Positions 49,625 through 61,596 of a stretch of 64,000 nucleotides of DNA are shown in pieces. The notes below the pieces were generated by a model that did no database searches, had not been told where the DNA came from, and worked only from the letters and a program-made list of their open reading frames with translations. The first letter of the stretch is position 1; each line of letters begins with the position of its first letter. Source of the stretch: an uncultured Oscillospiraceae bacterium (GTDB taxonomy: Bacteria > Bacillota > Clostridia > Oscillospirales > Oscillospiraceae); assembly GCA_947599875.1 (NCBI GenBank), contig CANQFV010000006.1:22418-86417 (forward strand). The letters run 5' to 3'. Made by a program: the position numbers and the translations under genes.

Positions 49625-49711
49625 CATTTTTTGACACAGGGCAATTATTTGCCTAAAAAAGGTGTGCAGGGGCCGCCATAACCCCCCGGGCCGCCGTGGG
49701 CGACGGCCCCT

Positions 49712-49885
49712 GCGGCGCAATTTGGGGCTTCCGTAATCCCTGTACGGGCCGCCGCCCACGGCGGCCCCTGCGGCGTAATTTGGGGCTTCCATAATCCCTG
49801 TACGGGCCGCCGCCCACGGCGGCCCCTGCGGCGTAATTTGGGGCTTCCGTAATCCCTGTACGGGCCGCCGCCCACGGCGGCCCGC
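49712..49885. repeat. Three tandem copies of a 58-base unit
   Basis: Three copies start at 49712, 49770 and 49828, differing at only a few positions. Each contains AATTTGGGGCTTCC and a GGGCCGCC/GGCGGCCC hairpin. A degenerate fourth lies at 49670-49711. The 444-base stretch 49564-50007 has no gene; it also holds a palindrome at 49940-49961 and the hairpin after the 64-residue gene. Confidence 0.85.
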
Positions 49886-54907: not shown

Positions 54908-55828
54908 ATGACAACTCGCACCATCACACCGGAGGCTGTGGCGGGATTCCGGGCACAGCTCATCTCCAACTCGTGCAGCGTCCACACCATTGGGCGCTAT
55001 CTCCACGACGTGATCAGTTACTCCGCCTTTTTAGGCGGGCAGGAGGTCACATCGGAGACAACCTACGCGTACAAGCAGAGCTTAGTTGACCGGGAGTACA
55101 AACCCTCCAGCATCAACACGATCCTGGCATCCCTCTTCGCGTTCTTCAGTTTCATGAAGTGGATTGACTGCGGCACACAGCGGATGATCATTCAGCGAAC
55201 CACCTACCTCCCGGAGGACAAGGTCTTGACCGAGAAGGAGTACGAGAAGCTCTTAAAGGCCGCCAAGAACCCCCGGGACAGGCTGCTCTTAGAGACTCTC
55301 TGCTCCAGCGGCATCCGCGTCTCCGAGCTTCGCTACTTCACCGTGGAGGCCGTGAAGCGGCGGGATGTGGGGGTGCTGTGCAAGCGCAAGAATCGAAGCG
55401 TCCTCATGCCGGAGGCGCTTTGCGTCAAGCTTGAGAAATTCGCAAAGGAGCGGGGCATCACATCCGGGGTCATCTTCCGGGGCCAAAAGGGGCGGCCCTT
55501 AGGCCGCCAGCGCATCTGGGCCATCATGAAGGAGACGGCCGAGCGGGCCGGGGTTTTGGCCTCCAAAGTCCACCCCCACAACCTGAGAAAATTATTTGCA
55601 AGAACCTTCCTCAAAAACGGCGGGGACATGCCCCAGCTCTCCGACGTTTTAGGCCACAGCAGCATCGAGACCACCAGAATCTATATCAAGTCCACAGGAG
55701 ATGAGCATCGGAAGCTCATCAACAGCTTAGGACTTCTATATCGGGAGGAGGAGACACCAAAAACAGTAACAAAGAACCCCTCCCGGAAGAAGCCCAGGAG
55801 GGGGAAGAAGAAAAAGAGACATTATTGA
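54908..55828 (+). CDS. Tyrosine recombinase (likely invertase of the adjacent switch)
   Basis: The 306-residue protein has an N-terminal SAM-like DNA-binding domain (residues 5-90) and a tyrosine recombinase catalytic domain. The catalytic set is complete: SSGIRVSELR with the first Arg, a lysine in CKRKNRS, HPHNLRKLFAR with His and Arg, LGHSS and TTRIYIK with the nucleophilic Tyr. The C-terminus is a highly basic tail. The start at 54908 follows AGGAGG. The last codons and stop overlap the left inverted repeat (55818-55841), so the enzyme gene and its substrate form one unit. It probably inverts the segment before the pilin gene; no phage or transposon genes are nearby. Confidence 0.93.
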   Translation: MTTRTITPEAVAGFRAQLISNSCSVHTIGRYLHDVISYSAFLGGQEVTSETTYAYKQSLVDREYKPSSINTILASLFAFFSFMKWIDCGTQRMIIQRTTYLPEDKVLTEKEYEKLLKAAKNPRDRLLLETLCSSGIRVSELRYFTVEAVKRRDVGVLCKRKNRSVLMPEALCVKLEKFAKERGITSGVIFRGQKGRPLGRQRIWAIMKETAERAGVLASKVHPHNLRKLFARTFLKNGGDMPQLSDVLGHSSIETTRIYIKSTGDEHRKLINSLGLLYREEETPKTVTKNPSRKKPRRGKKKKRHY

Positions 55829-55841
55829 TATAATGTCCATT
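55818..55841 (+). repeat. Left inverted repeat of the invertible segment
   Basis: A 24-base site, identical to the reverse complement of 56090-56113. It contains arms GACATTA and TAATGTCCATT around the asymmetric spacer TTGATA (55825-55830). Arm-spacer-arm is the core layout of tyrosine recombinase sites, and the spacer direction defines inversion rather than deletion. Confidence 0.9.
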
Positions 55842-56103
55842 AGGTCGCGATGGGGAAGCGCAAGCCTAACGAAATTCTTCGGTACTTATTATAGCCGAAA
55901 ACCTTAAAATGTCAAGTGCCGTTAGGCAAATTCCCCGAAAAAAATGAAAAAGACCACGCCGCGACGCACTCTGGAGCTTTCCGGAAAACGGAAAGGGGCC
56001 AGGGTGAGCGTCAGCGTACCCTCAGGTGTTCACCTCGCTAAAGTACGAGTGGAAGAAGTACCTAAGACAACCCAAGAGAACGACAGAAAAATGGACATTA
56101 TAT
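55828..56103. mobile_element. Predicted invertible DNA segment (phase-variable promoter)
   Basis: The segment between opposed 24-bp repeats is about 276 bases long, measured from spacer to spacer. It contains a consensus promoter oriented to the left and no credible gene. A GCCTAACG/CGTTAGGC inverted repeat (55864-55871 with 55920-55927) surrounds the promoter. The right half contains several small hairpins, such as CTTTCCG/CGGAAAG near 55977, which could reduce read-through into the pilin gene in this orientation. The stretch 55829-56222 has no other gene. Confidence 0.85.
55888..55915 (-). promoter_or_regulatory. Invertible promoter, now pointing away from the pilin gene
   Basis: On the minus strand TTGACA (55910-55915) and TATAAT (55888-55893) are separated by 16 bases. 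Both hexamers are perfect. In the present orientation it would transcribe antisense to the recombinase; after inversion it would read into the gene at 56223. Confidence 0.85.
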
Positions 56104-56113
56104 CAATAATGTC
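56090..56113 (-). repeat. Right inverted repeat of the invertible segment
   Basis: Perfect reverse complement of 55818-55841, with spacer TATCAA at 56101-56106. At this site the outer arms extend to 11 bases on each side. Confidence 0.9.
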
Positions 56114-56222
56114 CATTTTTCGCGTGGGGAGGGGCAGGTCAAAAGGCGATTCTTCCATCTTTTTATGCACCAAGACGAGGCCGGAGGAGGAGCCTCCGGG
56201 AAAGAACATCAGGAGGGCAGAC

Positions 56223-57674
56223 ATGAAACAAAATTCTTCAACAGAAAAGAGCAAAAACAGGGGCTTCACCTTGGTGGAGCTGATCGTCGTGATCGCGATC
56301 TTAGCGATCCTCTCCGCCGTGGGCGCGGTGGCCTACACGGGGTACATCGAACACACCAAGAAGGGGCTGGACAAGCAGACGGTGGGGGAGATCATGCGGG
56401 CAATCGAGCTTGCGGACTATTCTGACCCGACGCTGTTCGGGGAAAATGGCGGTGCGATGATTGCCCTGACGAATAAAGGTGTCCAGGCCGCCGGAGGACT
56501 TGAGGGTTCGGACATTGAGGGGGCGCTGAAGGATGCTTTCGGGGACCTCACGTCAACGAAACTGAGCTATGATAAATGGAGCGGCACGCCCGATATGGGA
56601 GTTTTCAGTGAGCTTGGTAAAACAGGTTCAAAAATTAACAGTTATCTGGAAACAACTAAAGGCGGCGGTGCGGCAAGCTTTGCAAACGAGATTGACCAAA
56701 TCTGGGAGGCTGTGGGTAAATATAAAGCTATGTATGCCAATGGCCTTGGCAGAGTTGTGCAAGATACCGAAACCTATCAGGACACAATCGAAGAGTACTG
56801 GAGCGGTAGTGGCGTTACCACAGGTACCGGTCTTTTTCAAGAAGCGGCAGGGATTGACACGACAGTTGCCCAGGCTGCTGAGATTGCCCGTACATATGCG
56901 TTTATCAGTTATGCGGAAAAGCAGACGGGTTTGACGGAGGACATGAAAAAGCAGCTTGCAGACGAGAAGGCTAAAATCATTGACCCAAGGAATGGTATGC
57001 CAGGCGCTTATTTTGCAATCTTTAATAACAGTGATTGGAATAGCATAATATCCAGCTACAAAAATGACGGTCAGGCAAAAATTGACGCAGAAGCGTATCT
57101 TGGTTTGTTGGAGGCTGCAAAAGCAGTTAAGACAACCGACATGGACGACGATGCCTTACTGAATAAGATGTCAGATTATGTTGGGATGGTCGGAAATGTC
57201 CTCACTCGTGCGACCGACTTGAGTGCAATTCAGGCTTTAGCTGGGGAGATTGGCAATAATCCCGCCGTCGTAGTTAATGTCACAAAAAGCGCGGGTAAAT
57301 TGGCGATTTCCGTTTCGCCCAAGGACGCCGATCCGAGAAATGGCAGTGAAGAAGGTGGAGGCAGCAGTTTCAACCCGGCGGACTACACAGCGACACTTAC
57401 GTTTGACAGCAGCGGAAAAACGTATGTCGGGCCTATTGTCCTGAGCATGTCTGATCCATCCTATCAAAAATGTACCATAGTAGACCCTGATGCCGGCGAA
57501 TATGTCTTGGTCAGTAGTGTTACACCATCCAATAGCGGCGTTGTTACAGCAGGATCAAATGGTTCCTCTTGGGAAGTTTCCGCAGTTGGAGCAGGTGAAA
57601 CCGATATCACCATTACTTGGGACTACGATGGCGAGGATCAAACCTCTTGCACCGTTCATGTAATTGTTTATTGA
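56223..57674 (+). CDS. Large type IV pilin-like protein with Ig-like C-terminus
   Basis: The 483-residue protein begins with a 13-residue leader and a prepilin cleavage/methylation motif, KNRGFTLVELIVVIAILA, so a prepilin peptidase should cut after the glycine. The glutamate at position 5 of the mature form is present. The soluble part is much longer than usual pilins (150-200 residues). The last 50 residues (SGVVTAGSNGSSWEVSAVG) resemble a bacterial Ig-like domain. Codon and base use become AT-richer from about 56430 onwards. AGGAGGG precedes the ATG at 56223; an upstream extension through the right repeat is rejected. No pilus assembly genes are nearby. Confidence 0.88.
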   Translation: MKQNSSTEKSKNRGFTLVELIVVIAILAILSAVGAVAYTGYIEHTKKGLDKQTVGEIMRAIELADYSDPTLFGENGGAMIALTNKGVQAAGGLEGSDIEGALKDAFGDLTSTKLSYDKWSGTPDMGVFSELGKTGSKINSYLETTKGGGAASFANEIDQIWEAVGKYKAMYANGLGRVVQDTETYQDTIEEYWSGSGVTTGTGLFQEAAGIDTTVAQAAEIARTYAFISYAEKQTGLTEDMKKQLADEKAKIIDPRNGMPGAYFAIFNNSDWNSIISSYKNDGQAKIDAEAYLGLLEAAKAVKTTDMDDDALLNKMSDYVGMVGNVLTRATDLSAIQALAGEIGNNPAVVVNVTKSAGKLAISVSPKDADPRNGSEEGGGSSFNPADYTATLTFDSSGKTYVGPIVLSMSDPSYQKCTIVDPDAGEYVLVSSVTPSNSGVVTAGSNGSSWEVSAVGAGETDITITWDYDGEDQTSCTVHVIVY

Positions 57675-57678
57675 TGAG

Positions 57679-57721
57679 ACACCGGGACGGTTCTTTTGGA
57701 TACACCGGGACGGTTCTTTTG
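57679..57721. repeat. Two direct repeats of a 20-base motif
   Basis: ACACCGGGACGGTTCTTTTG occurs at 57679-57698 and 57702-57721 (period 23) directly after the pilin stop. Confidence 0.8.
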
Positions 57722-57745
57722 TATCATTGCTTGCAATTTAACGAA

Positions 57746-61209: not shown

Positions 61210-61354
61210 GATACATCCCGTTTCACAAAATTTATTCATTGTAATTATACTCTCCCCGCCCCATAAAGAGTGAACAAAGAATGAATATTCGTTGAAATAA
61301 AGAGTTCCCCAATCGCCAAAAGCTCAATTTCCTCAGAATTGCCAAAACCCAATT

Positions 61355-61596
61355 TCAATATTTTTTGCGGGGCTTTGCCTCGCAAAAAATCCCTCTTGCC
61401 GCGCAAGTGTGCGGCCCTACGGGCCGTGCGCGCAGCGCGGCAGCAGAAAGACCCGGCGTGAATTCCGAAAAATTCACGCCGGGTCTTTCGCACGCGTCCT
61501 AATTGGCATTGGAAGGCCGCAGGGGTTTACCGCCAGGGCAGGAGAGGCGCGGAAAGCTCCCGCGCCAGAAGGCCCCCGCGGCCTTTCAAGCCAGTT
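61355..61596 (+). repeat. Structured dispersed repeat, copy 2
   Basis: Counterpart of 35822-36027. The first 50 or so bases (61355-61410) match almost exactly. The internal hairpins (CGGCCC/GGGCCG, then a long stem around 61449-61492) differ in sequence from copy 1 while keeping complementarity. The TCCTAATTGGCA block and a closing GGCCGC hairpin are present. The stretch 61210-61599 has no gene. Confidence 0.8.

Follow-up and report, generated by a model that had tools for sequence, protein, structure and literature searches.

Candidate promoter inversions at many loci, with their own tyrosine recombinases and prepilin-like outputs, in an uncultured Oscillospiraceae bacterium

In Bacteroides fragilis, many invertible promoters of a single genome control the cell surface and depend on one global invertase, Mpi. 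In Moraxella bovis it is reportedly the pilin genes themselves that invert. Titles cited in PMC11868660 and PMC5903667 present inversion of DNA as altering pilin expression in this organism. The E. coli fim system, outlined in part in passages of PMC11868660, includes the tyrosine recombinases FimB and FimE together with a short invertible promoter which drives the pilin of type 1 fimbriae. For cwpV of C. difficile (RecV), an intrinsic terminator at the left repeat has been proposed to end the OFF transcript 60–70 nt after its start (passages of PMC2784873). Among Clostridia, inverton group 139 and invertase group 35 are described in extracts of PMC11892184 as having reads in both orientations near tyrosine recombinases; the words "pilus", "pili" and "prepilin" are absent from the main text of that source as extracted.

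The stretch of DNA analysed here (64,000 nt, referred to as the window) is from an uncultured Oscillospiraceae bacterium. A sequence-only reading had proposed that it carries a recombinase, an invertible promoter and a pilin-like output forming a phase-variation cassette which is now OFF. We read this arrangement, from its sequence organization, as a fim-like, multi-locus phase-variation system. In the 12 cassettes of this genome in which two repeats are present, it is likely (a probability of roughly 0.87) that the recombinase inverts the promoter segment and switches the downstream prepilin-like gene, and that the window copy is OFF. The earlier reading had missed the scale of the system, with 15 recombinases and 17 prepilin-like proteins of cassette type, as well as possible features at the RNA level. 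If our reading is right, a fim-like switch has been amplified to 15 loci, every one of them beside a recombinase of its own, and the different prepilin-like protein at each locus where this can be seen would provide a large combinatorial surface repertoire.

The tyrosine recombinase would invert a promoter segment of about 250–300 bp between ACATTAT-N4-ATAATGT sites, turning the downstream prepilin-like gene on or off. In the ON orientation the promoter would transcribe the pilin gene, and the pilins would be exported by the type IV pilus machinery encoded in the genome. Many loci with a different pilin body at each would let cells vary the surface protein that they show.

Organization of the window cassette

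The recombinase gene (54908..55828, plus strand) encodes a 306-aa tyrosine recombinase, the likely invertase of the switch, with matches to PF00589 (Phage_integrase, E 1.7e-28) and PF02899 and a Xer-type alignment. Residues R137, H224, R227, H250 and Y259 fall in the stretches aligned with Xer enzymes and, with a lysine in the expected hairpin, form what we take, by eye, to be the catalytic set. The family is large: of the 8000 best candidates scored, 7512 match at E 1e-40 or better. The window recombinase is not of the FimB/FimE type, as it scores 38 bits with the NCBIfam model PRK09870 (cut-off 221) and 33 bits with PRK09871 (cut-off 222). Seven close recombinase copies (21 pairs) have dN/dS values of 0.015–0.080 at dS 0.25–0.54, which indicates that they have been kept functional. 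The flipping of each segment is presumably performed by the neighbouring recombinase.

Immediately 3' are two perfect 24-bp inverted repeats (left, 55818..55841, plus strand; right, 56090..56113, minus strand) which bound an invertible segment of 248 bp (55842..56089), homologues of which are known both ways round. Each arm includes a core site ACATTAT-N4-ATAATGT (55819-55836 and 56095-56112), and the two spacers, TGAT (left) and ATCA (right), are of opposite direction. In the 64-kb window this is the sole perfect inverted repeat of at least 18 bp with a gap of 100–1000 bp, and in 20 control sequences generated with a first-order Markov model there were 0 at 18 bp and on average 0.1 at 14 bp. 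A weaker perfect inverted repeat of 16 bp occurs at 49687-49884.

The segment carries a sigma-A promoter, TTGACA-16-TATAAT, on the minus strand (55888..55915, read from 55915 to 55888). It matches the consensus at 12/12 positions and points at the recombinase gene, the OFF orientation. A scan of the plus strand between 55192 and 56367 gave no promoter-like site of at least 9/12. A G+C-rich imperfect hairpin is predicted at 55955..56019 and its start, CACGCCGCGACG, can be seen by eye in most cassettes.

The output gene (56223..57674, plus strand) encodes a prepilin-like surface protein of 483 aa with an N-methylation motif (N_methyl, PF07963, E 3e-9), a helical body and a C-terminal Ig-like domain, as described with the help of an AlphaFold2 model (mean pLDDT 83) and a fold comparison. 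TIGR02532, the type IV prepilin N-terminal motif, scores 32.9 bits against a cut-off of 16.3, and N_methyl is the only Pfam match at E 0.1. The parts listed by the sequence-only reading, that is, a recombinase with its catalytic set and an adjoining switch of about 250 bp, a perfect promoter directed away from a pilin-like gene at 56223 and no other promoter for that gene, were thus all recovered. Its distance after inversion, about 100 bases plus leader, is refined by arithmetic to a leader that would be about 173 nt long.

Several other features of this region were observed. In the OFF state the pilin frame continues upstream without a stop codon (55944-56222) into part of the invertible segment, probably by chance. 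A dispersed repeat with GGGACGGTTCTTT is present in tandem 3' of the pilin gene (57676-57737) and has copies in C20 and C66, and an inverted pair related to it sits in the leaders of C45, C36 and C13. A second dispersed repeat (with GAAAGACCCGGCGTGAATT), at 61330-61499, has copies on several cassette-bearing contigs. An Rfam scan gave four matches at E up to 1, every one under its gathering score.

Copies, orientations and a natural inversion

The genome is a 2.73-Mb draft assembly of 89 contigs which presents one orientation per locus. It includes 15 related recombinases at E 1e-60 or better, eight of them 98–100% (rounded) and seven 47–64% identical. At 12 of the 15 loci both repeats lie in one contig and three loci are cut by contig ends. 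The pilin gene is in the same contig in 11 of the 12 complete cassettes; the contig of the other, C61, stops 3 nt past the right core and its pilin is out of view. Matches to the recombinase at E 1e-60 are found in 17 of 34 genomes of the genus (this one included). The 16 others provided 56 matches, from which 28 loci were examined with flanks of up to 1.5 kb. Ten have an ACATTAT-type repeat pair followed by the N_methyl motif; the remaining 18 include 11 with other or related repeats and seven where none was found, and at none of these 18 does the stretch examined contain the N_methyl motif. A further set of 15 wide regions from relatives, chosen because their recombinases are most like that of the window, has both repeats in 14 cases and one cut. 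A second group of recombinases is also present in relatives within the genus (L081-L090, L095-L102; 39–46% identical by tblastn). Other short inverted repeats, mostly 222–305 bp apart, occur at 11 of these 18 loci, and the downstream genes appear, by eye, to encode large secreted proteins, a helicase-like protein and one of chain-length type.

All 25 exact ACATTAT-N4-ATAATGT sites of the genome are in cassettes, and the pattern is present in nine of the 34 genus genomes, while the same pattern written backwards, used as a control, gave one hit in one genome. Across cassettes the repeat arms are perfect over 18–29 bp and the cores are 213–302 nt apart. The spacer is TGAT in nine of the 12 complete cassettes of this genome, where AGAT and AAAT also occur, and GGAT and AGGA are found in relatives. 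By analogy with other tyrosine recombinases, the spacers may set which loci are compatible; the TGAT, AGAT and AAAT differences make the site specificity of the recombinases and the insulation between loci directly testable. ACATTAT arms with yet other spacers (CCGC, GCGG, CTGC) are present at G025:C12, G030:C29 and G030:C43, the last with two right-hand sites 32 bp apart, and no prepilin motif was seen in the examined loci of these three.

The genome has 25 N_methyl matches, 24 above cut-off. Among them are 17 large prepilin-like proteins of cassette type (408–544 aa), 14 of one body class and three of another, which have their N-termini in common while the bodies are 12–35% identical to that of the window protein. 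Such sizes are large for a major pilin and the cassette pilins may be tip or surface adhesins. The genome also encodes two clusters, each with T2SSE ATPases and a T2SSF protein, and has two prepilin-peptidase matches, so that both the peptidase and the assembly ATPase expected for a type IV prepilin-like protein are present. Of the two type IV pilus clusters, one follows the ON cassette C2 (G000:C2:80132-81800) at a distance of about 5 kb. Elsewhere, L074:5997-17243 is an open frame of 3749 codons with a prepilin-type N-terminus at its start, near pilus genes.

In this genome the promoter faces away from the pilin side in ten cassettes and toward the pilin in two (C1 and C2); among relatives, 12 are OFF and two ON (G024_C33 and G024_C40). 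The search of related genomes which the sequence-only reading had suggested found the same layout in both orientations: in total, 26 two-repeat cassettes in seven genomes have a common layout, 22 OFF and four ON. Together with one exact ON/OFF inversion between species, this supports the description of the arrangement in the window as a phase-variation cassette in its OFF state.

This inversion is between G024_C33 (ON) and G017_C33 (OFF), cassettes of two species of the genus other than that of the window, and is a difference between species and not within a strain. When one segment is inverted, 97.9% of the 289 nt between the cores match, whereas without inversion no more than 108 columns can be aligned; the 200-nt flanks are collinear (left, 92.0% over 174 columns; right, 93.5% over 199 columns). 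G024_C33 also matches C61 (OFF) of the window's genome at 97.9% of 290 nt when inverted, with a left flank at 94.0% and the right flank missing, and G015_C25 and G024_C37 at 92.8% and 93.4% inverted, with right flanks at 96.5% and 95.5% and left flanks at 75.9% and 75.0%. Three control OFF-OFF pairs align on the same strand at 92.4–97.9%. We regard the ON/OFF pair as the strongest evidence for flipping at the repeats. Both orientations also occur among paralogues of the window's genome; for C1 and C2 no close counterpart facing the other way was found. What the sequences themselves show is a layout common to the cassettes, copies in either orientation and, in one homologous pair from two species, an exact inversion. 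Because matching segments face opposite ways, it is likely that the bacterium flips promoter segments and so turns different surface pilins on or off.

Other explanations of these observations can be weighed against local inversion. It is unlikely that the recombinases act mainly between loci, via like core sites, and rearrange switches or pilin ends in the manner of a shufflon or Vpma. Such a role would fit the TGAT spacer common to most of the complete cassettes, and also a 455-nt block (55794-56248) which has zero differences across five loci even though their pilins diverge from codon 9 on and their recombinase DNA is 83–100% alike (75-nt windows). The inversion observed between species, however, is confined to one cassette and runs exactly from one of its cores to the other, and the identical block extends past both repeats. 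Three further copies break inside it. The block could stem from gene conversion, from exchange through the sites or from collapse of short reads in assembly; conversion or collapse fits it as well as action between loci does, and collapse may be part of the reason why the switch is identical in five loci. The notion that the switches are relics, flipped once and now differing in orientation by history only, would account for the OFF state of all five complete near-identical copies of the window's class (window included), inside which no flip is seen. We consider it very improbable, in view of the strong purifying selection on the recombinase copies, the perfect arms and the difference of only about 2% in the segment of the inverted pair. 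Least probable of all is that the dispersed unit is a mobile element with the recombinase as its integrase and the repeats as attachment sites: near-identical units are indeed present at many places in the genome, but the repeats sit past the recombinase gene and enclose the promoter segment only, similarity among copies begins just upstream of the recombinase and fades within the pilin gene, and a promoter-bearing segment has been found turned round between the cores that bound it.

The predicted OFF-state RNA and the pilin leader

In the OFF orientation the promoter would produce an RNA of 71–76 nt which stops at a hairpin formed by the core, followed by a T-run outside the left repeat; this stop would keep antisense transcription off the recombinase gene. 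With the start taken as 7 nt after the -10 box, the window RNA is predicted to be 71 nt (55811..55881, minus strand), with its end at the hairpin of the left repeat and the five T in a row there, and lengths of 71–76 nt are obtained in all 24 cassettes with a T-run (of 26). On the outgoing strand, within 24 nt past the left core, there are 6–8 T in 16 of 26 cassettes and 4–5 T in eight, and no run in C1 and C2. Past the right core the longest T-run is five in the five window-class loci and at most three in 20 others, C61 being cut. A terminator scan of the window, which requires G-C-rich stems, did not list the left-repeat hairpin. Terminator-like sites on the plus strand that would stop read-through from the recombinase gene in the OFF state are present in only seven of the 26 cassettes.

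The 17 distinct natural OFF transcripts have the core hairpin in common, together with a 5' part that is nearly invariant. Their consensus fold scores z = -5.5 against column shuffles, owed largely to the palindromic core; its outer stem includes up to four pair types, yet some cells are unpaired. In the ON orientation the same 5' sequence would head the pilin mRNA and pair with the leader beyond the right repeat (56113..56150, plus strand, in the window). Predicted duplexes between the two are -37 to -55 kcal/mol in 23 of 24 cassettes and -29.8 kcal/mol in C2. Shuffled sequences did as well in at most 6/200 cases in 22 cassettes, in 11/200 in C1 and in 162/200 in C2, the complementarity being weak in C1 and none in C2. 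Cognate pairs scored 10.8 against 8.7 (0/5000 permutations), a statistic that ignores relatedness.

The match between the inside of the left repeat and the outside of the right one may instead act at the level of DNA, as an accessory binding site for the recombinase or a partner, and to this we give rather less than even odds. It adjoins the cores in the 25 cassettes readable on both sides, although it is poor in C1 and C2. Pairing in a transcript, on the other hand, predicts that differences between the two sides keep G-U pairs, and these are kept 80 times and broken 11 times, with 62 transversions, in a count over 19 distinct but related cassettes. With a G-rich right-hand copy and related cassettes, this count is inconclusive between RNA pairing and a DNA element.

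If the pairing is one of RNA, the 5' part could act as a silencing RNA when the switch is OFF and as a leader stem when it is ON. We think it doubtful that the OFF switch is in effect a small-RNA gene whose 71–76-nt product silences pilin mRNAs of its own and other loci. Were this so, many OFF cassettes would restrain the few ON ones, so that few pilins are shown at once, and each flip would fuse the sequence to the head of a pilin mRNA and convert a repressor RNA into a leader. Such an RNA would tie DNA inversion to RNA silencing in one element.

Two related proposals were dropped. Pairing of a 5' GAAGAAT with pilin codons 4-6 gained little from a duplex test, in which z values were -3.0 to +1.8 (G029_C53 left out). 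Codons 5-6 are TCT TCA in all 24 NSS/DSS pilins among the 31 listed, and in this class shuffles of the start region were as good in 1–19/200 cases in OFF cassettes of the window's genome and in 53–196/200 in relatives. A clean contrast between ON and OFF folds was likewise rejected: natural ON leaders have z values of -5.5 to -7.7 in three of four cases (own_C2, -0.9) and OFF transcripts -1.0 to -3.1 in 16 of 18 distinct ones, and the pattern is broken by own_C2 and also by own_C12 (-5.8) and own_C7 (-7.5), with a second hairpin in the fold.

Comparison with described switches

The cassettes have the properties of invertons in that inverted repeats bound a promoter and both orientations are found, within one genome among paralogues and, between species, in homologous cassettes. 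In the titles, starts of abstracts and passages searched, which cover subscription literature thinly, no report was found of a Firmicutes prepilin switch that has its own recombinase. Inverton group 139 and invertase group 35 of Clostridia are similar by description in extracts of PMC11892184, with a short inverton near a tyrosine recombinase. As for cwpV, a hairpin with a T-run is predicted (in 24 of 26 cassettes), but on the transcript of the other direction; and while the cwpV promoter lies outside the inverting region, that of the present cassettes is within it and, in the OFF state, points in the opposite direction. Like the Mpi system of B. fragilis, this one would include many invertible promoters controlling the surface in one genome, but with a recombinase gene beside each switch and with prepilin-like outputs. 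DNA inversion altering pilin expression would be a feature in common with M. bovis, except that here the promoter would invert, and at many loci.

A further parallel is with fim, where a tyrosine recombinase likewise lies by a short invertible promoter driving a pilin. In contrast to fim, there is one full-length recombinase per locus, there are many loci, and the outputs are type IV-type prepilins; that of the window carries the type IV prepilin N_methyl motif and is not a type 1 fimbrial subunit. The cassette would work like the fim switch but is not of FimB/FimE type by the marks tested. It is a real multi-copy variant of known invertible-promoter switches.
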